Shown here: one piece after another, positions 41,331-51,232 of the stretch
Numbering within the stretch: the stretch's first letter is position 1
How the letters are laid out: each line of letters begins with the position of its first letter
Assembly: GCF_036227205.1 (NCBI RefSeq)
Contig: NZ_CP109442.1
Coordinates: 9,486,001-9,550,000 of the forward strand
Length of the DNA: 64,000 nt
From: Amycolatopsis sp. NBC_01480
Lineage (GTDB): Bacteria; Actinomycetota; Actinomycetes; Mycobacteriales; Pseudonocardiaceae
Direction of reading: 5' to 3'
Notes under the pieces: generated by a model
Told to the model about the DNA's origin: nothing
Seen by the model: the letters and a program-made list of their open reading frames with translations, nothing else
Databases searched by the model: none
Position numbers and translations under genes: made by a program

Positions 41331-41805
41331 GTCCCTTCAGTTCATTCTCAGCTGCGGAGGCCGGCCCGGTGGAAGTCCTGCACGAGCGGCCGCGCCCATG
41401 CTAGGACGGACCACCGACAAAAACGGGCTCCACGGCCTTGACCTGCGGTTTTCCGGCTTCCCGGCGGTCGCCGGGCCGGGACGCCGAGGTCCGGTCCGGC
41501 AGCGGCCCGGTTCCTGGTGCACCAGCTGGAGACCATACGAGACCCCGCCGGACCCGGTGACCGCCGGGGCGACCCATGGGAGGCACGGAAACCGGGCCCC
41601 GCGGATCACCAGGACGGCCGGCGCACAGGAAATTCAAGTCCGATCCCAGGATACCGATCGCGACGAGCAACCGCCGGTATGAGGAGCAGCACCCGGACGA
41701 GTCCCAGCACCACACGATCGGTGCGACTTGACAGCCGTAGCGGCACCGCCAGTGGCGGTCACGCGGGTGGAAGCGACGGCGCCACCCCGGCTACCGTGTG
41801 CTCTT
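41331..41805. other. Divergent intergenic region between uvrA and the MBL gene
   Basis: About 475 bp without a supported gene. It should carry both promoters. TACCGT at 41792-41797 lies 8 bp before the GTG of the MBL gene and may be its -10, implying a near-leaderless message. I looked for an SOS box of the actinobacterial CGAAC-N4-GTTCG type and did not find one. Confidence 0.4.
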
Positions 41806-42483
41806 GTGAACATCGTCGACTCTTACACCGGGCACGTCGAACCGGGCGGCGACGCCGCGCGACGCACGCTGGATGCGCTGACCATCACGAAGCTTTCGGT
41901 CGGGCCGATGGACAACAACGCGTACCTGCTCGTCTGCCGCGCCGAGAACGAGGCCCTGCTCATCGACGCGGCGAGCGACCCGGAGCGCATCTCGGACCTG
42001 ATCGGGCACGGCCCGGAGCGCCCGGCGCTGCGCACCGTCGTGACGACCCACCAGCACCCGGACCACTGGCAGGCCCTGGGCGCGGTGGCGGGCGCGAACG
42101 GCGCGAACACCGCGGCGCACCCCCTGGACGCCGAGCCGCTGCCGATCCCCCCGGACTTCCTGGTGGAACACGGCGACGCGCTGAAGGTGGGCCAGGTCAC
42201 CCTGGAGGTGATCCACCTGCGCGGCCACACCCCTGGCTCGATCGCCCTCCTCTACCGCGACCCGACCGGCCACGCGCACCTCTTCACGGGCGACTCGCTC
42301 TTCCCGGGCGGCATCGGGCGGACCACCTCACCTGAGGACTTCACGTCCCTGCTTGACGACGTGTCGTCGCGCATCTTCGACGAGCTGCCGGACGACACTT
42401 GGTTCTATCCGGGCCACGGGGACGACTCGACGCTTGGGGCGGAACGTCCGAAGCTGGCTGAATGGCGCGGACGCGGCTGGTGA
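41806..42483 (+). CDS. Metallo-beta-lactamase-fold hydrolase (glyoxalase II-like)
   Basis: A 225-residue hydrolase with the binuclear metal motif THQHPDHW (HxHxDH), then LRGHTPGS, FTGDSLFPGGIGR and the final GHGDDSTLG. GTG 41806 (VNIVDSYTGH) is preferred to an upstream ATG that adds a poor extension. It is divergent from uvrA, a neighbourhood conserved in mycobacteria. Thioester hydrolysis is a family-level guess; the physiological substrate is unknown. Confidence 0.88.
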   Translation: MNIVDSYTGHVEPGGDAARRTLDALTITKLSVGPMDNNAYLLVCRAENEALLIDAASDPERISDLIGHGPERPALRTVVTTHQHPDHWQALGAVAGANGANTAAHPLDAEPLPIPPDFLVEHGDALKVGQVTLEVIHLRGHTPGSIALLYRDPTGHAHLFTGDSLFPGGIGRTTSPEDFTSLLDDVSSRIFDELPDDTWFYPGHGDDSTLGAERPKLAEWRGRGW

Positions 42484-42616
42484 GCAACTACTCCGAGCAA
42501 TGCCTATGTCACCCATAGGCTGACTGCTGCCACCTGCTCAGAGGACAGCTTATGGCTCGAAAGTCCCCGACACTGGGAATTTCGAGCCATATCGCCGTCC
42601 TTGAGGAGGCAGGCGA

Positions 42617-43681
42617 ATGCACCCTGGCCGCCCGCTGGTGGCAGTCAAATGCAAAAGCGGTGAGCTCAATGCCCTCCGCCAGCTCAGCTCCGCGGACGAC
42701 GCGCAGGCAGACGTGATCGTCGAGCTGCTCGATTCCGTGAAGCCCAGCGGTAAACTGCTGCCCGCACTCGTCCAGGCCGCGGTCAACGTCGCGCAATTCA
42801 ACCGGACCTTGTGGCTGGACACGACTTGGCTCACCGCCGGCAGCCCGCTGGCACAGCAACGGGGCGGGGTTTTCGAGTACCTCGACGACATCATCGAATC
42901 CGCCATGGTGCAGAGCCTGGGGCTCCTCGCCGTCGATCGGGCCGGCTTGGTCCCGGTCATCTCGGTCGACGCCTCGAACGACGAACTACGGCGGGTCCGG
43001 CTGCTGATCGAGCACAAAGACCGCGATATCGCCATCCGGATCCGCCGCCCGGCACCGAGGCTCGCCGAGCGGATCCGATCGATCATGCGGTTGACCGGCA
43101 CCGAGCCCGGACGCGTCCATGCCGTGATCGACACCGGATTCGTCGAAACCGTACGAGCCCATCAGGTGGCTTCGATAGCGGAAGCCGCTACGACGACGTC
43201 AGATCTGCTGGGTCCCGGGGCGACCAAGCTTCTGGCCGGATCGATCCCACGCGAACGGAAGACCTACGCGACAATCCTGCTTGACCGTCCAGAGGTCACG
43301 CTGTGGAACGAGGTACGCAACGGCTGCTCCGGCGACATCGGTTACGGCGATTACGGTGTGACGCACCCAGAGCCTCCCGCAGCCGGGGGCAACGCCCGAA
43401 GCCCTTTCCCCTACCTCTGTTACACGGTGCCTCGAAGGACCGTGATACTGCGCCGGAAACAGAAGAAAGGCGATGTGGCGGCCGAATTGTTCGCCGATCT
43501 GGCCGAGGAACTGGTCGAGCGAGACGACTTCGCCGGTCCCGGCTATTCATGGGGCGATCGCGAGTTGACGCAGTGCCGGCCGACCGGCAGCAAGGTCGCC
43601 GGGGCGGTACCCCGATGGATCGCCATGGCCACCTCGCACCACCTCCAGCACGTGTCACACCGGCCTGCGGACGATCTCTGA
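42617..43681 (+). CDS. Beta-family protein (T4 'beta protein' domain-like)
   Basis: A 354-residue protein whose opening PLVAVKCKSGELNALRQLS and overall beta/alpha layout resemble the 'beta family protein' group named after a bacteriophage T4 protein. Members are scattered through accessory and defence regions and lack a firmly known activity. Conserved-looking stretches include EYLDDIIESAMVQSLG, VIDTGFVETV and SPFPYLCYTVPRR. ATG 42617 has GAGGAGG 7 nt upstream. GC content looks slightly lower than its neighbours. It converges on the ATPase operon with only 62 bp between. The family call is moderate. Confidence 0.6.
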   Translation: MHPGRPLVAVKCKSGELNALRQLSSADDAQADVIVELLDSVKPSGKLLPALVQAAVNVAQFNRTLWLDTTWLTAGSPLAQQRGGVFEYLDDIIESAMVQSLGLLAVDRAGLVPVISVDASNDELRRVRLLIEHKDRDIAIRIRRPAPRLAERIRSIMRLTGTEPGRVHAVIDTGFVETVRAHQVASIAEAATTTSDLLGPGATKLLAGSIPRERKTYATILLDRPEVTLWNEVRNGCSGDIGYGDYGVTHPEPPAAGGNARSPFPYLCYTVPRRTVILRRKQKKGDVAAELFADLAEELVERDDFAGPGYSWGDRELTQCRPTGSKVAGAVPRWIAMATSHHLQHVSHRPADDL

Positions 43682-43743
43682 CTTTCGTCTGCGGCACCGC
43701 CTTCCCGCCACCGGACGTCGTTCGCCGGCTCCGGCCGACAGCC

Positions 43744-46700
43744 TCACCGCCGGGCGCGGTCGACCACCTCGTCTCCGGTCAGGGTCGTGGCCGGGTGGTG
43801 GCTGAGGCAGAAGGGCGGGCGCACCTTCTGGAACCGGATGTTGTCGCTCGTCACGTAGAAGGTGCCGGGTGGGAGGGTGGCCAGGTCGGTCAGGTCGCGG
43901 CCCTTGTTGCGGGCCAGTTCCCGCGCCGCGTCGATGTGGGCGGCGGTGTTCTGGCGGCCGAAGAACTGCGTGGTCGCGTTGCCGGAGATGCGGCTGTGCA
44001 CGGCTTTCGGCGCCTGTGTCGCGAGGATCATGCCCAGCCCGTACTTCCGGGCCTGCGACGCGAGCCGGATGCTGCTGTCCGTGCTGGCCGCGTGGCTCGT
44101 CGACGGGGCCAGGTCCTGCGCCTCGTCCATCACCAGCAGGCCGCCGAGCGGGCGGTCCCGCGCCGGGTTCTTCTTGATCCAGGCGAACAGTTCCAGCTGC
44201 AGCCGGTTGACGAAGCTCTGCTGCTCCTCCCGGTCCGGGATGCCGTCGAAGTTCACCACCGACACCCGCGCGTGCCGGCCCTCGGACGGGATCAGCAGCG
44301 AACCCGGCTCGACCGGGTTCGCCGACCGGCGCAGCGCCGGGTCGTTGATCTGCGCGGTACGCAGGTTCTCGGCGAGGTCCGCCGCGATGGTGCCGGCGTT
44401 GGCCAGGCCGCTCACGCTGTCCGGGAGGTCCGTGAGCACGTCGATCAGCCCGTCGAGACTCCGGCCGCCGGTGCCGGCGTAGTACTGCAACGCCTGCCGG
44501 AGCACCGCCCGGCCCCGGTCCGCCTTCGCCGTCTTCCCGCCCACCCGCGCGCTCGACGCCAGTGACGCGACCGCGGCGTTGACAGCGAACTCCAGCTCGT
44601 CAAGATCGTCCAGCACGGCCGCGAAGTCCGGCAGTGGCGGGAAGCTCAACGGCCGGCCGTTCTGCTTTCCCGGCGTCCACACGACAACCTCGGTGCCACG
44701 GAGGTACTCGGCGGCCTTCTCGCGGTCCCCCTCGCCCCACCTCGCCGGCGGCGACGGCCACGGGTCGCCGAGGCGCGCGAGGTCGTTGTTGAGGTCCAGC
44801 ACGATCGAGGAAACGCCCTGCAGCGCGCATTCCTCGACCAGCCGGCGGATGAGCACGGTCTTCCCCGAACCCGAGCCGGCGAAGATCATCACGTGCTTGC
44901 GCAGGGTTTCGAGCGGGACGCCGACCGTCGACCCGTCCGCGGCCAGCCGGCCGACCGGCACCGTGGGGACGCCGGTAGGCATCGCGGAAGAACCGGGCTC
45001 GTCGACGACCGGCGCGGCAGGTTCGACTGCCCGCGCAACAGGCTCGGCAACAGGCTCGGCGGGCACACCTCCGGGGAGGTCCGGCAAGACCGCGGACAGC
45101 AACTCGCTCCCGGACGCGGGCCGGCGCGCGCCGAGCCAGTCGAAGAAACCAGGCCGCTGCTCCTCCGACATGACCTGCAACGCCGAGAAGACCCGGAGGT
45201 CCTGCTCGGTGATCGGCACCGAAAGCCCACCGGCCACGGTCATCTTCTTGAGGTGCTCCTGCGTGGCCGCGCCCCGCGCCCACGGGATGTTGCGGATCAG
45301 CACGAGATGGCGTCCGCCGCCGTCGTGCACCCCGGACGCGGTGATGGCGTTCTTCAGCCGGCTCACCGCGTTGCGGCCGTCGTTGCTCGACGCCGCGCGG
45401 AAGGACCACCGTTCTTCGGTCTCGTCCTCGTCGACGGTCCACCGGAGCCGGGCGTGCAGCGAGGGCCGCCGTCCCGCGGGCGGCGGGTCGACGGTCCACT
45501 CGCCTTCCGAGCCACGCTCCCTGACCCACGCGGCCAGGGCGGCGCGAAGCAGCGGGGGCACCGCCTCGTCCTCCCGGTCCGGGTCGAGCGGGCCGCGCAC
45601 GTCGGCGGCGGCCTTCAGCTCTTCGAACCGGGCGTCGAACGGCGCGAGGTCCGCCGTGGACGGCAAAGGCAGCTCGCCCGAGACCACGCCGTCGAACGGC
45701 AGCACCTCCAGCGCGGACTCGTCGAACGTCACCAGCTCGCGGATCTCCCCGCTCTGCAGGCACGCCTCGGCGTGGCGGGAGATCCGGTTCAGCACCTCGC
45801 GCGGGGTCAGCGTGCTGATCCCGGCGAACGCCGACTCAGCCACCGGCCAGGTCTGGTGCGAGGGGGCGAACGAGATCCGCTCGTAGGTCCGCTGGAGCCA
45901 GGACGCGACGAGCTCGCGGCCGATCCCGTCGTCCTGGAGCCGGTTGAGCACCGACGACGCGGTGAACCGGTCCCGCACCGACGCGACCGCCTTGTTCCTG
46001 ATCAGATCCCAGGTCTGGGGCAGGCAGGCGACGACCGTGAGCGTCCGCCGGGTCTCCTCGCGCAGCAGCATCAGGCCGTCGGCGACCTCTTCGATCTTCG
46101 TCTCGGTTTCCTCGTCGTCCTGCGCCGAGCCGATCTGGGTGGTCCGCTTCCGGGACTGCGCGACGAAGGTGTCGATCTGGTCCACGGCGATCACGCTCGG
46201 GCCGGTCAGCGCCAGCAGCTTGGACACGTCGCCGACGACCTCCCGCGGCGACGGCGCAGCGGCCCGGAACCCCCACGTCCGCCGGTCCTCGGGGTCGAGG
46301 TCCTCGGCCGAGTGCAGCCGGTCCTCCCCGATGGTGTTCAGCCGCGAGGCGTCGGCCGCCAGCAGGACCAGCGCGCGGGCGACGTCCTGGCAGTCGAACG
46401 CGACCCGCCGGTCGTACCGCTTCAGCGCGGCGATGAACTGGTCCAGCTCACGCGGGGTCAGCTCCGTCTCGCCCCGCACCGCCGCCGCGAGCGGCGGCGG
46501 CACCTTCGCCAGTGCGCAGATCCGTTGGAGGAACACACCAAGCTGGTTCTGTCCGTTCCGGCCGTCCTCCATCAGCCCGTGCAGGATCGCGTCGGCGATG
46601 TCCGCCCAGAACCCGCTGACGTCGCCCAGGTTGCTGAGGAAGAAGTAGCCCTCGGCGCGCAGCTGCTGGCGGAACCAGCCGAGCAGGTGTGTCTTGCCCG

Positions 46701-46905
46701 CCCCTTGCCGTCCGTTCAGCACCACGCCGATCGGGCTCGGCCCCTGGCTGTCGGCCGCGGCCCGCAGTCCTTTGGCGAGCATGCCTTGCGCCTCGGCGTT
46801 CAGGGACCGGACGTGGACCGGCTGCGTCGTCCACACGTGCTCCTGGGTCAGCGCGGAATCGGCGCGCAGCGCTTCCAGCGCTTCCCTCGGCCCGGCGCTC
46901 ATCAC
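43744..46905 (-). CDS. Dual P-loop ATPase with C-terminal HerA/FtsK-like domain (candidate defence ATPase)
   Basis: A 1053-residue protein with two NTPase modules. The first is AAA/STAND-like: Walker A GRQGAGKT at 65-72, Walker B SVIAVDQID near 237-245, and then VVACLPQTWDLI. The second is HerA/FtsK-like: Walker A GSGSGKT at 677-683, LVMDEAQDLAP, and an ILATQAPKAVHSRI stretch typical of HerA-type DNA pumps. A linker rich in Pro/Val/Glu (about 610-650) separates them. The start is GTG 46905 or ATG 46902, both overlapping the previous stop. It is the last gene of a four-gene operon. DNA translocation or remodelling is inferred. Confidence 0.75.
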   Translation of the reverse strand: MMSAGPREALEALRADSALTQEHVWTTQPVHVRSLNAEAQGMLAKGLRAAADSQGPSPIGVVLNGRQGAGKTHLLGWFRQQLRAEGYFFLSNLGDVSGFWADIADAILHGLMEDGRNGQNQLGVFLQRICALAKVPPPLAAAVRGETELTPRELDQFIAALKRYDRRVAFDCQDVARALVLLAADASRLNTIGEDRLHSAEDLDPEDRRTWGFRAAAPSPREVVGDVSKLLALTGPSVIAVDQIDTFVAQSRKRTTQIGSAQDDEETETKIEEVADGLMLLREETRRTLTVVACLPQTWDLIRNKAVASVRDRFTASSVLNRLQDDGIGRELVASWLQRTYERISFAPSHQTWPVAESAFAGISTLTPREVLNRISRHAEACLQSGEIRELVTFDESALEVLPFDGVVSGELPLPSTADLAPFDARFEELKAAADVRGPLDPDREDEAVPPLLRAALAAWVRERGSEGEWTVDPPPAGRRPSLHARLRWTVDEDETEERWSFRAASSNDGRNAVSRLKNAITASGVHDGGGRHLVLIRNIPWARGAATQEHLKKMTVAGGLSVPITEQDLRVFSALQVMSEEQRPGFFDWLGARRPASGSELLSAVLPDLPGGVPAEPVAEPVARAVEPAAPVVDEPGSSAMPTGVPTVPVGRLAADGSTVGVPLETLRKHVMIFAGSGSGKTVLIRRLVEECALQGVSSIVLDLNNDLARLGDPWPSPPARWGEGDREKAAEYLRGTEVVVWTPGKQNGRPLSFPPLPDFAAVLDDLDELEFAVNAAVASLASSARVGGKTAKADRGRAVLRQALQYYAGTGGRSLDGLIDVLTDLPDSVSGLANAGTIAADLAENLRTAQINDPALRRSANPVEPGSLLIPSEGRHARVSVVNFDGIPDREEQQSFVNRLQLELFAWIKKNPARDRPLGGLLVMDEAQDLAPSTSHAASTDSSIRLASQARKYGLGMILATQAPKAVHSRISGNATTQFFGRQNTAAHIDAARELARNKGRDLTDLATLPPGTFYVTSDNIRFQKVRPPFCLSHHPATTLTGDEVVDRARR

Positions 46906-47543
46906 TCCGCCATCGAGAGGAGGTGGTTGTCCTCACCGCCGATCCGGACCGCGGCCGCGCGGTCCTCGGCCGTGAGCGTCTTCTGGTTCGCCTCCGGGAT
47001 GAGCGTCCCCCCTTTGCCGTCCAGGTCCTTGAGCACCTGGTCCACCTCGTGCCTGGGCAGGCCGTCGAGCTGCCGGCGCAAGTCGGTGAGGCTCACCCAG
47101 TCCTCGGGCTCGGCGGCCAGGTCGGCATAGGCCCGGCGCACCCGGTCCACAATGGACGCTTCGGCGTCTTCCTCGGCCAGCTCGGGCACCTCGGCGGTGA
47201 ACAGCTGGTCGATGGTGAGCCGGTTGGCCGACAGGTACCGGTCCAGCGCCGCGGTCATCCGGTGGACGACCCGGTCCAGCGGGGCCGGCCGGCCGCCCGG
47301 GGTCGCGGTGAACTCGGCCCGGCACCAGGTCCAGCCACGCTCGGTGAGCGCGTGCTCGTAGGTCCGGCCCGATTTCTCGCTGGTGACCAGTTTCTCCGCC
47401 TTGAGCACGCGGCGGTCCTCGCCGACGATGCGCAGTCCGCAACACTCGTCCAGCTCCGGGTTGGAGATCACCCGGGCCTCGGCCATCAGCGCGTACAGCA
47501 GAGTGCGCTGGAGGCTGCTCAGCTTCGGCTTGTCCTGCGGCAT
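46902..47543 (-). CDS. Predicted winged-helix protein of the ATPase operon
   Basis: A 213-residue soluble protein with no family I can name. The N-terminal SLQRTLLYALMAEARVISNPELDE...RRVLKAEKLVTSEKSGRTYEHALTERGW (about 8-70) has the helix-helix-wing pattern of winged-helix DNA binders. A second helical part (about 150-190, LTDLRRQLDGLPRHEVDQVLKDLD) looks like another small winged helix. ATG 47543 shares one base with the preceding stop (TAATG), and its own stop overlaps the ATPase start, so stoichiometric co-translation with the ATPase is likely. Confidence 0.6.
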   Translation of the reverse strand: MPQDKPKLSSLQRTLLYALMAEARVISNPELDECCGLRIVGEDRRVLKAEKLVTSEKSGRTYEHALTERGWTWCRAEFTATPGGRPAPLDRVVHRMTAALDRYLSANRLTIDQLFTAEVPELAEEDAEASIVDRVRRAYADLAAEPEDWVSLTDLRRQLDGLPRHEVDQVLKDLDGKGGTLIPEANQKTLTAEDRAAAVRIGGEDNHLLSMAE

Positions 47544-48637
47544 TAAGACGCTCCTCGTGAGTCGATGTCGAGCACGGTGAAGCCGGTGGGATCGGTGACG
47601 TGCAGCTCGGTTCGCCGGCTGTGGAGGATCACCGCTCCCCGGACCTGGACCCGGCGCTGCTCGTAGTGCGCGACGATGGCGGACTCGTAGGTCCGGCGGT
47701 CGGGCAGCCGGACGTGCAGCTTCCGGCGCGCGGTGCCGGCCAGCGGGGTGTCCGCGCTGACGTCGATCGCCCAGTGGTCGCGATCCAGACGCGGGATGAG
47801 CCCGGTGACGGTGACGACGGCGGGCACCTCGGGCAGGGACACCACGCCGTCGTCGAGGGTTTCGAGCAGCCGGAGACGGGTGGCGGTGGCCCGCAGCCGG
47901 TCGCCGGCGCCCGGTTCGAAGCGGTAGACAGCGGGCGGCAGGTCTGCCGGCAGGGTGCGCGACCAGCCGAAGCCGATTTCGAACGAGCGTTCCTCGGACT
48001 CGTCGGACAGGGCGCCCAGCACGTCGCAGAGATCCGCGGAAAGCGGCGCCCCGCCCGGGTCGGCTTTCGGTTCCGCGGCCGGGTCGCTGAGCACGGAGAC
48101 CGCGCCGTGCAACCGCTGGGTCACCAGGCGGCCCAGCGGCATCCCGGAGCCGTCGGACTCCCCGAGCGGTACCCGGACCGGCACGATGTAACTGCCGGGC
48201 CGGCCCGTGCCGACCTGGATCCCGGCCATGAACCGGTCGACCGCCGCGGACCCCTCGCCACCGGACGACGGGTCCCCGAGGACGGCGTTCGACACCGCCC
48301 GGAACGCCCCGCCGATGCGTGCGACGGCCGAGAGCGCGTGCCGCAGCGTGGTGAATCCGGACAACGGCGTCAGGAACCGGAACCGCTGCGTGTCGGCCGG
48401 GGACGAGCCGATGTCCTGGGCGATTTCGCCCGGCGCCCGGTCCTCGACCGCGGCCAGAACGTCGAGGATCTCGCGCACGCGCAGGTCACCGTCGCCCATG
48501 CCGTCGCGGGCGGGGACGAGGACGTCGGCGCCGTCGCGCGTCCAGATCGACGCGCCGCGCCACTGGAGCGGGCGGAGTTGCCAGCCGGTTCCGCGCAGGT
48601 AGTCGGCGATGGCCGAGACGCCGAGGGCGGCCGTCAT
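47543..48637 (-). CDS. Unrecognised 364-residue protein of the ATPase operon
   Basis: No known domain is evident. It is soluble and mixed alpha/beta, with no signal or membrane segment. The N-terminal part (GVSAIADYLRGTGWQLRP..., about 5-60) is followed by a helical region, and the C-terminal 120 residues look beta-rich (VVTVTGLIPRLDRDHWAIDVS...RRVQVRGAVILHSRRTELHV), somewhat like an OB or SH3-type barrel. ATG 48637 overlaps the DUF4365 stop (ATGA). It is probably a specificity or scaffold subunit of the cassette, which is inference from position. Confidence 0.5.
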   Translation of the reverse strand: MTAALGVSAIADYLRGTGWQLRPLQWRGASIWTRDGADVLVPARDGMGDGDLRVREILDVLAAVEDRAPGEIAQDIGSSPADTQRFRFLTPLSGFTTLRHALSAVARIGGAFRAVSNAVLGDPSSGGEGSAAVDRFMAGIQVGTGRPGSYIVPVRVPLGESDGSGMPLGRLVTQRLHGAVSVLSDPAAEPKADPGGAPLSADLCDVLGALSDESEERSFEIGFGWSRTLPADLPPAVYRFEPGAGDRLRATATRLRLLETLDDGVVSLPEVPAVVTVTGLIPRLDRDHWAIDVSADTPLAGTARRKLHVRLPDRRTYESAIVAHYEQRRVQVRGAVILHSRRTELHVTDPTGFTVLDIDSRGAS

Positions 48638-49158
48638 GCGACGCTCCCGTCCTGCGGCTGCACCGAGCAGACCAGCGCGCGCAGGCTGCGGACGGTCAGC
48701 ACGTTCGCGACCGGCACCCGCACGGAGCGGTGGCGCTCGGGGCTGGGCTCGCCGACGGGGGCCTCGTCGCGGCCCGACCAGTAGTAGGCCAGGTGCCGGA
48801 AGAGCATTCCGTCCGTGCGGAATTCAGCGTACTCGCCGATTTCCGGTGGAACCCTGACCAGCACCAGATACCGCGGGATGGTGAAGTCGTCACCGGCGAT
48901 GCGGTTGAATTGCACCTCTGTGATTCCGGTGAAGTCCCATTCCGCTGCGGATGGCGCTTCGCGCGGGTCCGGCCACGCCCGAATCTGCACTTCGATACCC
49001 GGCGAAGCGACGCCGTTCACGCGGCCGGGGAAACGAATGCCGAGGTCGATTCCGTCCCGCTCGAGACTGTACGCGCGCACGAGCAAGCCAGCCGCGGAGG
49101 CAAGCGTGCGGACGTAATCCTCGCCGAAATTACCGTGGCGACCCAAGGCTTCCAGCAC
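48634..49158 (-). CDS. DUF4365-like predicted nuclease of the ATPase operon
   Basis: A 174-residue protein matching the DUF4365 pattern: GRHGNFGEDYVRTLASAAGLLVRA, then a DGIDLGIRF acidic position, SPGIEVQIRAW (the place of the E-x-K/Q active-site strand of PD-(D/E)xK folds), and FNRIAGDDFTIPRYLVLVRVP. I use GTG 49158 because GGGGGAGG precedes it; an ATG at 49182 would place that site inside the gene. It is first in the four-gene operon. Nuclease activity is inferred from the fold; the usual Lys/Gln of the motif appears as Gln-Ile-Arg here. Confidence 0.65.
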   Translation of the reverse strand: MLEALGRHGNFGEDYVRTLASAAGLLVRAYSLERDGIDLGIRFPGRVNGVASPGIEVQIRAWPDPREAPSAAEWDFTGITEVQFNRIAGDDFTIPRYLVLVRVPPEIGEYAEFRTDGMLFRHLAYYWSGRDEAPVGEPSPERHRSVRVPVANVLTVRSLRALVCSVQPQDGSVA

Positions 49159-49473
49159 ACAACCTCCCCCGGCTGTGATCATGAAGAGCGGCGGAGGAGA
49201 GCTTACGCGGCAGCTTATTCGCTGTCAGCGGAGGAAACCCGGATGGACCACCGGCGGCAACGATCGAGAAACGAAACCATTCGACGAACCAGGCCCCGAT
49301 GACGGGTACTGATTCCCGGACAAAAACGCGACAGAAACCGGAAAAGCGCAGGTCCGCCGGGTAACGTCGGCACCGCACGCGACCCGGCGGAATGATCGAC
49401 TCCACCGTCCCGCCGATAAACGACAGGAATTGTCCGGTCCGAGCACGGCCCAGCGCTGGCACAATCGGCGGAT
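49159..49473. other. AT-richer intergenic gap upstream of the ATPase operon
   Basis: About 315 bp with noticeably lower GC than the surroundings and no supported gene. It should contain the promoter of the DUF4365-ATPase operon on the minus strand. No palindrome or canonical promoter could be assigned confidently. Confidence 0.4.
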
Positions 49474-50259
49474 TCAGCCTCGTTCGTACGGGACCTTCTC
49501 CCCCGCTTCCACCGCCAGCGGCAGGCGGTTGCCCTCGGGCGGGAGCGGGCAGGTGGCGAAGTCCGTGAAGGCGCAGGGCAGGTTGACGGCGCGGTTGAAG
49601 TCCAGCGTCACCGTGCCGTCGGCGGACGGGGCGGCGACCGGGAGCGAGCGGTTGGCCGCGTACGTCGTGACGCCGCTGGTGGCGTCGGTGAAGAGGATGC
49701 TGAGGCCGCCGTTCTTGCCGTTGAACGCGGTGAGCGTGTGCTCCTCGCCGCCGAGTTCGAAGCGAACCCGGCCGGGCGCGGTGTAGACGTGGCTGAGCCC
49801 TTCGACGACCGCGCCGACGGTCGTGGGCCGCGGCGAGTCGAACGGCTCGAACCGCGCCTTCACGGCCCAGGCCGGGTCCGGCTCGTAGGACGGGACGCCG
49901 TGGAACGCTTGGAGTACCGGCGCTTTCGGGTCGTGCACCCGGATCAGGTACCCGGACCGGCGCGCGATCTCGATCTCGAGGTCACCGGCCGTCACCCGGG
50001 TCCCGGCACCGCTGTTGACCAGCTCGAACCGGCGCACGGCAGTGATCGGCTCGCCGTCGTGGACGAGTTCGCCACCGTCCGGGTCGACGTACGCGGCGTC
50101 CGCGTCCTGCCACCAGCGGCCAGGCAGCCCGGGGTACTCGCGCGGGGTGTCCTCCAGCCAGTCGAGCGAAACGAGCGCCAGCCACCCGTACGGATCGGCG
50201 AGGTCGGTTTCGCGCCGGGTCTTCCAGTCCTGCCACTCGCGGGCGAAGTCCACGGTCAT
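49474..50259 (-). CDS. DUF1684 domain protein
   Basis: A 261-residue protein of the widespread DUF1684 family. The N-terminal FAREWQDWKTRRETDLADPYGWLALVSLDWL and the C-terminal TVTLDFNRAVNLPCAFTDFATCPLPPEGNRLPL are diagnostic. No signal peptide is present. ATG 50259 has AAGGGG upstream. Function is unknown; the compact beta fold and conserved Cys/Asn residues near the end do not settle an activity. It marks the return to ordinary gene content after the defence-like cassette. Confidence 0.85.
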   Translation of the reverse strand: MTVDFAREWQDWKTRRETDLADPYGWLALVSLDWLEDTPREYPGLPGRWWQDADAAYVDPDGGELVHDGEPITAVRRFELVNSGAGTRVTAGDLEIEIARRSGYLIRVHDPKAPVLQAFHGVPSYEPDPAWAVKARFEPFDSPRPTTVGAVVEGLSHVYTAPGRVRFELGGEEHTLTAFNGKNGGLSILFTDATSGVTTYAANRSLPVAAPSADGTVTLDFNRAVNLPCAFTDFATCPLPPEGNRLPLAVEAGEKVPYERG

Positions 50260-50401
50260 CACGTGCCCCTTTCGTCGGCGCCGGTGCTGTGAGGGGGAAC
50301 GTCCGGGCGGGCGAGGCATTCCCGGTCCCAGCATGCGGGCACGCTGCGCGTAACGGACCGCGCCAGGCGGGCGACTACCTGGCGCTACCAGGAGGTCGAC
50401 A

Positions 50402-51232
50402 ATGTGGTCGCTGTTCACCAAGAAGGCTCCTCCGACGGTCGCGCTGACCCCGCCTCCACCGAACGCGCCGGATTACCTGCCGTTGCCAGACGACGGACGG
50501 TTCCCGGTCGCCGGGGAATCGCACTACCAGCCGGCCCTGTTCGCGGCCGCGCGTGGCCGGGTCGCGGGGCAGGAGTTCGACGAGCACCTCCCCGTGACGG
50601 CGGCGCTCACACCCGAGCCCGAAAACGAATGGGACCACCACGCCGTGCGCGTCGACGTCTTGATCGACGGGAAGCCGTTCAGAGTCGGCTACCTGCCACG
50701 GGAACTCGCCGCCGAGTACCAGCCCTCGCTGCTCGCGCTGGGGGAACGCGGTTTCGTGGGCACCTGCGCCGCGCGGATCACCGGTGGCGGCGAGCGGTTC
50801 TATGGCATCTACCTGCACGTCTCCCGGCCGCGTGACCTGCGGGTCGCGCTCGGGTTAGCGGAACCGTTCGTCGCCCGTCGGACGGAGGGAGCGGTGCTGC
50901 TGCACAACGACTGGTCGTGCACGGTGACCCAAGAGCACGCGCACCAGGACGTGCTGGCGCGCTACGCACCGGCTCCCGGGGGCGAACCGCGGGCCGTGAT
51001 CGCGTCGCTTTGCTTCTGTCTCATCGGAAGCGGGAAGTACCGCGGGCAGGAGGCGATCGAGGTCCGGCTGGACGGGGCGCGGGTCGGCGAGCTGACGCAC
51101 GCCATGTCCCAGCGGTACGGCGACCGGGTGCGGGCGCTGACCGGCCAGGGGCTCGCGGTCACCTGTGAAGCGTTCACGATCAGGACCGCGAGAGGCGTCG
51201 AGGTCGGATTGCGGATGCCGCCGGGCCGGTGA
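50402..51232 (+). CDS. HIRAN-domain protein with two HIRAN-like halves
   Basis: A 276-residue protein. Residues about 35-130 form a HIRAN-like domain (VAGESHYQPAL...LTPEPENEWDHHAVRVDV...VGYLPRELAAEYQPSL), a fold linked to recognition of DNA ends or damage. Residues about 170-270 repeat the layout more weakly (CTVTQEHAHQDVLARYAP...QEAIEVRLDGARVGELTHAMSQRYG). There is no attached helicase or nuclease. ATG 50402 follows AGGAGGTCGACA. Role unknown; DNA binding is an inference. Confidence 0.72.
   Translation: MWSLFTKKAPPTVALTPPPPNAPDYLPLPDDGRFPVAGESHYQPALFAAARGRVAGQEFDEHLPVTAALTPEPENEWDHHAVRVDVLIDGKPFRVGYLPRELAAEYQPSLLALGERGFVGTCAARITGGGERFYGIYLHVSRPRDLRVALGLAEPFVARRTEGAVLLHNDWSCTVTQEHAHQDVLARYAPAPGGEPRAVIASLCFCLIGSGKYRGQEAIEVRLDGARVGELTHAMSQRYGDRVRALTGQGLAVTCEAFTIRTARGVEVGLRMPPGR

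Follow-up and report, generated by a model that had tools for sequence, protein, structure and literature searches.

A candidate mobile immune cassette of Amycolatopsis that joins a DUF4365-family protein to an AAA-HerA fusion with exchangeable partners

Introduction

Several described systems come close to the locus considered here, a four-gene cassette (genes A, B, C and D) within a stretch of 64,000 nucleotides from Amycolatopsis sp. NBC_01480 (contig NZ_CP109442.1, positions 9,486,001 to 9,550,000; hereafter the window, whose coordinates are used throughout). In DUF4297-HerA, joining of the motor is reported to activate both enzymes and to promote nuclease dimers (excerpts of PMC11291478), and in SPARDA the formation of filaments and tetramers activates the DREN nuclease domain (excerpts of PMC12205087). 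Rakesh, Aravind and Krishnan (2024) predicted operons composed of an Orc/Cdc6 AAA+ protein, an inactive restriction endonuclease (REase), an active REase, a HerA/FtsK motor and a winged helix-turn-helix (wHTH) protein, and proposed that such "capture" operons intercept invading DNA; in other neighbourhoods TIR domains were found fused to related Orc/Cdc6 proteins (excerpts of PMC10853773). The capture idea has been extended in a 2026 paper on BREX (excerpts of PMC12839542).

Sections 22 and 26 of PMC10853773 make no mention of TIR or ParA proteins beside a HerA core, and DUF4365, DUF559 and AIPR are absent from its main text. A further point of reference is PDC-M02, a phage-defence candidate (PDC) in PADLOC-DB. 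The PDC sets are unpublished candidates from Payne et al. 2021 (excerpts of PMC11811056); the term "PDC-M02" was found in no paper of the open-licence PMC literature, nor was a published test.

Results

The cassette occupies 43744-49158 and consists of four minus-strand genes that overlap by 4 bp (A/B), 1 bp (B/C) and 4 bp (C/D):

48634-49158, minus strand: gene A, 174 aa with a GTG start; DUF4365 (PD-(D/E)xK) nuclease family, PADLOC PDC-M02A
47543-48637, minus strand: gene B, 364 aa; PADLOC PDC-M02B, predicted nucleic-acid-binding partner of A
46902-47543, minus strand: gene C, 213 aa; constant partner of D, without a Pfam match
43744-46905, minus strand: gene D, 1053 aa; AAA NTPase, middle domain and HerA motor

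An earlier note on this DNA, made from the letters alone, had described four tightly spaced genes encoding a predicted nuclease, a HerA motor and a second NTPase; indeed, all four reading frames are present and open, and Pfam finds DUF4365 in A and both DUF87 and AAA_22 in D. Chance open reading frames are excluded because A, B, C and D each have many homologues in the same order. The note had also called the cassette uncatalogued, which did not hold: A and B match, side by side, the A and B models of PDC-M02, and a logic of AAA, HerA, REase and wHTH proteins was already predicted in the excerpted sections of PMC10853773. Of the two partners regarded as unrecognised, B thus has a catalogue entry, while C does have neither a PADLOC nor an acceptable Pfam match. 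Full-length D occurs only once in the host genome (~10.1 Mb).

Homologues of the core were collected by searching with D in 200 genomes of the family (threshold 1e-40) and 394 of the class (1e-30), both sets including the window's own genome. Distribution was patchy, with D detected in 61 of 200 and 46 of 394 genomes, respectively. All 68 other family places, 20 of the 45 other class genomes and three plasmid-collection records were sampled, and the partner counts and tree below rest on 92 distinct D proteins with a minimum length of 780 aa. At 91 of these 92 loci the gene immediately 5' of D is C, the exception being the second, 1447-aa D of one genome.

The genes accompanying this pair differ between loci. 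A ParA-like protein is found at 43/92 loci; the five genes 5' include a TIR gene at 41 of these and a SEFIR gene at the other two. A-B is found at 16 (one, L089, with A and no B called) and a DUF559 nuclease at 12 (the domain was present in all six members scanned). An AIPR/AbiU-like gene stands 3' of D at four loci (one member scanned: AIPR 4e-40, AbiU 3.5e-115) and a protein of 695-731 aa accompanies three, in one case as a fragment that abuts the end of a contig. These domain assignments rest on representatives. A recognised partner is therefore present at 78/92 loci, which suggests that the C-D core needs one. The representative TIR partner matched TIR_2 (3.6e-12), and a pattern that we take to mark the catalytic Glu of TIR domains fits 31 of 43 TIR-cluster proteins, the 12 misses including a fragment and a 326-aa protein. 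The ParA-type P-loop reads KGGVGRS in 42 of the 43 ParA-like partners and KGGVGRT in the remaining one, so that the second Walker lysine is always Arg.

Partner type follows the clade of D, and free shuffling was therefore rejected. On the D tree the five named partner types alone can be explained by five changes, the minimum possible being four, indicating that partners have been replaced but rarely. Taken type by type, two changes are needed for ParA, five for A-B (three forced by starred branches) and nine for DUF559 (six forced), and the A-B loci are divided between two regions of the tree. The tree was made by a quick, short search; its deepest forks are open and some rows are long-branched.

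Several of these loci have features of their own. In Tsukamurella (L158) a DUF559-C-D island lies between rplN and rpsQ, splitting the usual order of ribosomal-protein genes, and gene lengths suggest the same place for L166 and L178. At loci of the TIR-ParA-C-D type (L040-L079 and similar) a SEFIR/TIR protein is often encoded 5', or D is followed on its 3' side by a TIR-like protein, a helix-turn-helix gene and an activator of the NB-ARC/TPR kind; these neighbour clusters, numbering 17, 25, 23 and 39 genes over all loci, are perhaps parts of a larger signalling island. In one genome (L088, 4773-7675) C-D is preceded by two MutS domain V proteins, possibly a further partner type. At L086 (298-6110) a pPIWI_RE protein (PprPIWI 3e-81) and a 1071-aa NTPase-like protein precede C-D, with an AIPR gene 3'.

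Viewed from the A-B side, 31 loci were recovered when named bacterial genomes were scanned with a B alignment, and the PADLOC B model matched 9 of 296 phylum genomes, two of the nine in the C-terminal part only. The one of these two that was inspected (L137) proved to be a DNA polymerase III alpha carrying an OB domain. Among 45 distinct B proteins, A lies directly 5' of 43 (of the others, one is at a contig end and one has no A called), and the full A-B-C-D order is found at 33. Because the loci come mostly from B-based searches, these counts are uninformative about how common each form is.

The 33 complete loci represent 27 different contexts, where loci were grouped if they had two or more neighbouring gene families in common (>=45% identity, within three genes on either side), although short contigs may look distinct for lack of flanks. 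The fixed order in 27 contexts therefore indicates that the four genes move as a unit; the rare co-occurrence that the earlier note had said would speak against a cassette was not observed. Spacing is tightest between C and D, which overlap by 4 bp at 27 of the 33 loci (and at 39 of 40 TIR-ParA loci); A and B do so at 19. B and C overlap by 1 or 4 bp at only two, the window among them, with a median gap of +32.

Among mobile elements, plasmid p28 of the spirochaete Entomospira culicis carries a copy of A-B with neighbours of defence type, namely DUF262 genes, HicA and an Abi protein. Within plasmids B was found only in Entomospira, in two records of one organism (59% covered, 25% identity), and D in three records, one being an 11.85-Mb, chromosome-like molecule and one carrying ribosomal-protein genes. 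The first two genes of a mycobacterial prophage match A and B weakly (6e-4 and 8e-3, respectively; two identical-looking records).

The GTG at 49158, with a strong purine-rich box, GGGGGAGG, upstream of it, is the best start for gene A; a longer reading frame of 182 aa begins with ATG at 49182. Scans of the 182-aa form identified DUF4365 by Pfam (9.6e-8, residues 19-171) and PDC-M02A by PADLOC (8.2e-54), while a single-sequence search with A gave no match. Two sites correspond to the active centre:

49045-49047, minus strand: Asp38 of A, by motif the catalytic D41 of the SPARDA DREN domain
48979-48987, minus strand: Gln58-Ile59-Arg60 of A, the family QxK motif with Lys replaced by Arg

In an alignment of 44 distinct A rows, the Asp38 column holds Asp in all 40 rows that cover it, and the Lys column of QxK holds K in 38, R in two (the window and L032) and G in one (L033), with three not covered. 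The catalytic residues that the earlier note expected of a DUF4365 enzyme are thus kept at Asp and Gln and altered at Lys. From these sequence features A is a predicted DREN-type PD-(D/E)xK nuclease.

Gene B matched PDC-M02B (2.8e-83) and no Pfam model. Its AlphaFold2 (AF2) model (predicted local distance difference test, pLDDT, 85.7) has two recognisable parts:

47549-47833, minus strand: residues 269-363 of B, OB fold (SSB/RPA/PriB-like)
48449-48625, minus strand: residues 5-63 of B, alpha-beta3-alpha unit, perhaps HicA/dsRBD-like

The OB fold at the C-terminus is established by computation on this predicted structure; a profile search of B against solved structures gave nothing better than E 0.5. 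A BFVD match to DUF6575 (E 3.6e-6), a family with one protein among the anti-phage systems in excerpts of PMC9519451, had a template modelling (TM) score of just 0.32, and kinship is not claimed.

For gene C, a Pfam scan of 43 family members gave no match, the window's C having none above the cut-off, and so the name "winged helix" given to it earlier found no support in the libraries. We nevertheless regard C as probably a winged-helix DNA binder. An alternative EF-hand assignment arose from calmodulins at 7.5e-5 and upwards in a solved-structure profile search; it was rejected as chance because the scores were low and lay over a helix-rich stretch.

Gene D encodes three domains, with both P-loops intact and conserved:

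45706-46905, minus strand: residues 1-400, AAA (AAA_22/AAA_16) NTPase; Walker A 65-72, Walker B D242, invariant R313
45088-45645, minus strand: residues 421-606, middle domain; alpha-beta3-alpha-beta order as in the restriction-endonuclease fold, no ExK motif
43771-44991, minus strand: residues 639-1045, HerA/FtsK motor; Walker A 676-683, Walker B D927-E928

Pfam identified the HerA central domain DUF87 (1.6e-9) and AAA_22 (7.1e-9), and the best PADLOC matches were mad8 (1.7e-21, residues 649-1022) and HerA models, with DndH and PtuA models also matching. In the AF2 model (pLDDT 83.4; predicted TM score, pTM, 0.49) the motor is computed to have a HerA-type fold, resembling HerA of the HerA-NurA, SIR2/HerA and HerA-DUF complexes. 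The fold-search list was filled by the motor part; the AAA half is assigned as AAA_22/AAA_16 with an intact P-loop. The modelled strand-helix order of the middle domain would fit a possible inactive REase.

The genomic site of the cassette is defined by two flanking genes, with a further gene inside:

49474-50262: DUF1684 gene, one flank of the slot
41806-42483: metallo-hydrolase gene, the other flank
42617-43681, plus strand: Beta_protein family gene (Pfam 1.2e-47; PADLOC PD-Lambda-2_C 5e-25)

DUF1684 was matched in 64 of 80 genomes of the genus, the window's own included. Twenty other congeneric genomes, mostly near relatives, were hand-picked for comparison, and 19 were readable from the DUF1684 to the metallo-hydrolase gene. 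The cassette was absent from the slot in all 19; the slot was gene-free in L138 and L155 (93 and 141 bp) and held other genes in the remainder. Among the loci examined, A-B-C-D occupies it only in the window and in L032 (G171, same genus). The placing of the cassette between conserved genes was therefore correct as to the flanks; the gap between them is a variable slot, which makes the cassette accessory.

The Beta_protein gene is convergent with D (62 bp apart), absent at the same site in L032, and low in GC content at third codon positions (GC3, 0.79). In another congeneric genome (L145, 1377-5438) the same slot is occupied by two defence-like proteins, a UvrD helicase resembling GajB and a DNA methylase that includes an Mrr domain.

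Discussion

From the gene content, the C-terminal fold of B and the motor fold of D, the intact P-loops, the fixed order across 27 contexts and the substitution of ParA-like/TIR or DUF559 proteins for A-B on the same core, all of which were computed directly, we infer that the cassette is probably a mobile two-module system of immunity against invaders, most likely phages or plasmids. The replacement of A-B by TIR/ParA-like and DUF559 proteins suggests that C-D senses and that the partner strikes. In such a scheme sensing and motor action would fall to C-D: D would assemble into a HerA-type ring on the invading DNA, its N-terminal AAA NTPase would act as the trigger and C as a DNA-binding adaptor. 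A-B would be the weapon, with B holding or positioning nuclease A and contacting nucleic acid. D might engage foreign DNA at ends or at replication or transfer intermediates, whereupon an ATP-driven change could cluster or feed A-B; by analogy with motor joining in DUF4297-HerA and filaments in SPARDA, D on foreign DNA would order the pair. A would then cut DNA, so that the invader is restricted or the cell killed. Complex formation, triggering, DNA cutting and protection from phage are all expected under this proposal.

We give about even chances to a broader idea, that C-D is the shared chassis of an unnamed, mainly actinobacterial immune class that fires different weapons by clade: DUF4365 with an OB protein, TIR with a ParA-like protein, DUF559, an AIPR/AbiU-like protein or the 695-731 aa protein. 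One and the same event at the HerA ring would then set off both the nuclease and the TIR types.

A number of results weigh against a two-module immune system. A-B and C-D can live apart: B occurs without C-D at 12 of the 45 distinct B loci, with A adjoining in 10, and no recognised partner accompanies C-D at 14/92 loci, at least one of which (L178) is cut by a contig end. Six of the 12 are from Chromatiaceae, one (L128) lying between type I restriction genes; the other six (L131-L136, presumed Streptomyces; A not called in L136) all adjoin thrS, identified by Pfam in one locus and as homologues in five. Such a fixed place is more like that of a vertically kept gene and is unusual for a defence candidate. 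D found no match at 1e-10 in 50,697 phage records, and the 29 pattern matches to B on viral contigs included no true relatives. Of 10 cargo proteins scanned from the slot in other genomes (PADLOC/Pfam), eight lacked a PADLOC match and the two defence-like ones both come from L145, which makes a poor case for a defence hotspot. The fold of C is unproven, as is the nature of the middle domain of D, for which hhalign gave no profile match to A, B, C, the N-terminal part of D, DUF559, ParA or TIR. Finally, the window's A carries D-Q-R, not D-Q-K, with Arg at the catalytic Lys position.

The separate occurrence of the modules, together with the loose B-C junction, also favours the idea that two independent defence systems stand in tandem, A-B (PDC-M02) being complete alone while C-D merely travels along. 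It likewise undercuts the earlier suggestion that the overlaps imply a four-protein complex, as the tight B-C overlap is a rarity. We consider the tandem arrangement unlikely, given the constant A-B-C-D order at 33 loci and the partner genes that so regularly accompany C-D. A similarly low probability attaches to the view that the window's copy is decaying or its nuclease non-catalytic, with Lys to Arg in QxK reflecting relaxed selection. The substitutions in the window, L032 and L033 set against the prevailing Lys, and a GC3 of 0.82 in A compared with 0.92-0.94 for B, C and D, would be consistent with decay; however, all four frames are open and both P-loops of D intact, Arg is a mild change, and in the SPARDA nuclease K62A only impaired activity, whereas D41A and Q60A abolished it (excerpts of PMC12205087). 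Least probable of all, in our estimation, is a chromosomal repair or segregation machine of the HerA-NurA type acting in end resection. The resemblance of the D motor to HerA of HerA-NurA is noted above; patchy presence, a site that is empty or otherwise filled in relatives, and partner exchange, with TIR and ParA-like proteins taking the place of A-B at 41/92 loci, rank this housekeeping role low.

Should one core indeed fire unrelated effectors, its trigger would have to reside in C-D and not depend on the effector, and a comparison of the nuclease and TIR versions of that core would test cleanly what it is that HerA-type defence motors sense. The orphan candidate PDC-M02 would gain a partner, and DUF4365, DUF559 and TIR effectors would be joined around a single motor.

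How, then, does the cassette compare with known systems? The resemblance to HerA defence systems proposed in the earlier note was supported at the level of architecture. PDC-M02 covers A and B, whereas C is without a PADLOC match and the D matches carry no PDC-M02 label. Relative to DUF4297-HerA and SIR2-HerA, the cassette has an additional AAA half, C and B, and lacks a SIR2 or DUF4297 match; NCBIfam anti-phage HerA models scored 22 and 19.7 bits on D against cut-offs of 800 and 850. With SPARDA it shares a DUF4365 domain bearing the active-site D and Q, but A has no room for APAZ and is partnered by an OB-fold protein, and no Argonaute was found among the proteins of 41728-51232 scanned (eight by Pfam, five by PADLOC). 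The D motor is closest in PADLOC to mad8 of the MADS/BREX-related systems; PglZ, a BrxC-like ATPase and DUF4007 went unmatched in the same scans. Unlike in DndFGH/DptFGH, the DndH model reaches only E 0.0039 over 72 residues of D, and DndF and DndG had no match among the five PADLOC-scanned proteins. SPARDA, DndFGH, SIR2-HerA/DUF4297-HerA and MADS were thus rejected as identities, their required partner genes not being found.

The open-licence PMC literature, preprints excluded and in part as excerpts, yielded no description of DUF4365 with HerA, HerA with DUF559, or KGGVGR/TIR with HerA; two related papers (PMC7159879, PMC8195603) contain "HerA" in the reference list only. An AAA-HerA fusion with an A-B pair, and TIR/ParA, DUF559 or A-B on one core, appear not to have been described there. 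The nearest relative in logic is the HerA/FtsK capture class, in which the cassette would have a place: an AAA NTPase, an REase-like middle domain (unproven), a HerA motor and a separate nuclease candidate are combined in one operon. It differs in that D fuses AAA and HerA, although the excerpts of PMC10853773 allow various arrangements, and in that the nuclease is DUF4365 with an OB partner. The HerA/FtsK motor of that class is present in D, and its Orc/Cdc6 AAA+ protein, inactive REase, active REase and wHTH protein may have counterparts in the AAA half of D, the middle domain of D, A and C, respectively.

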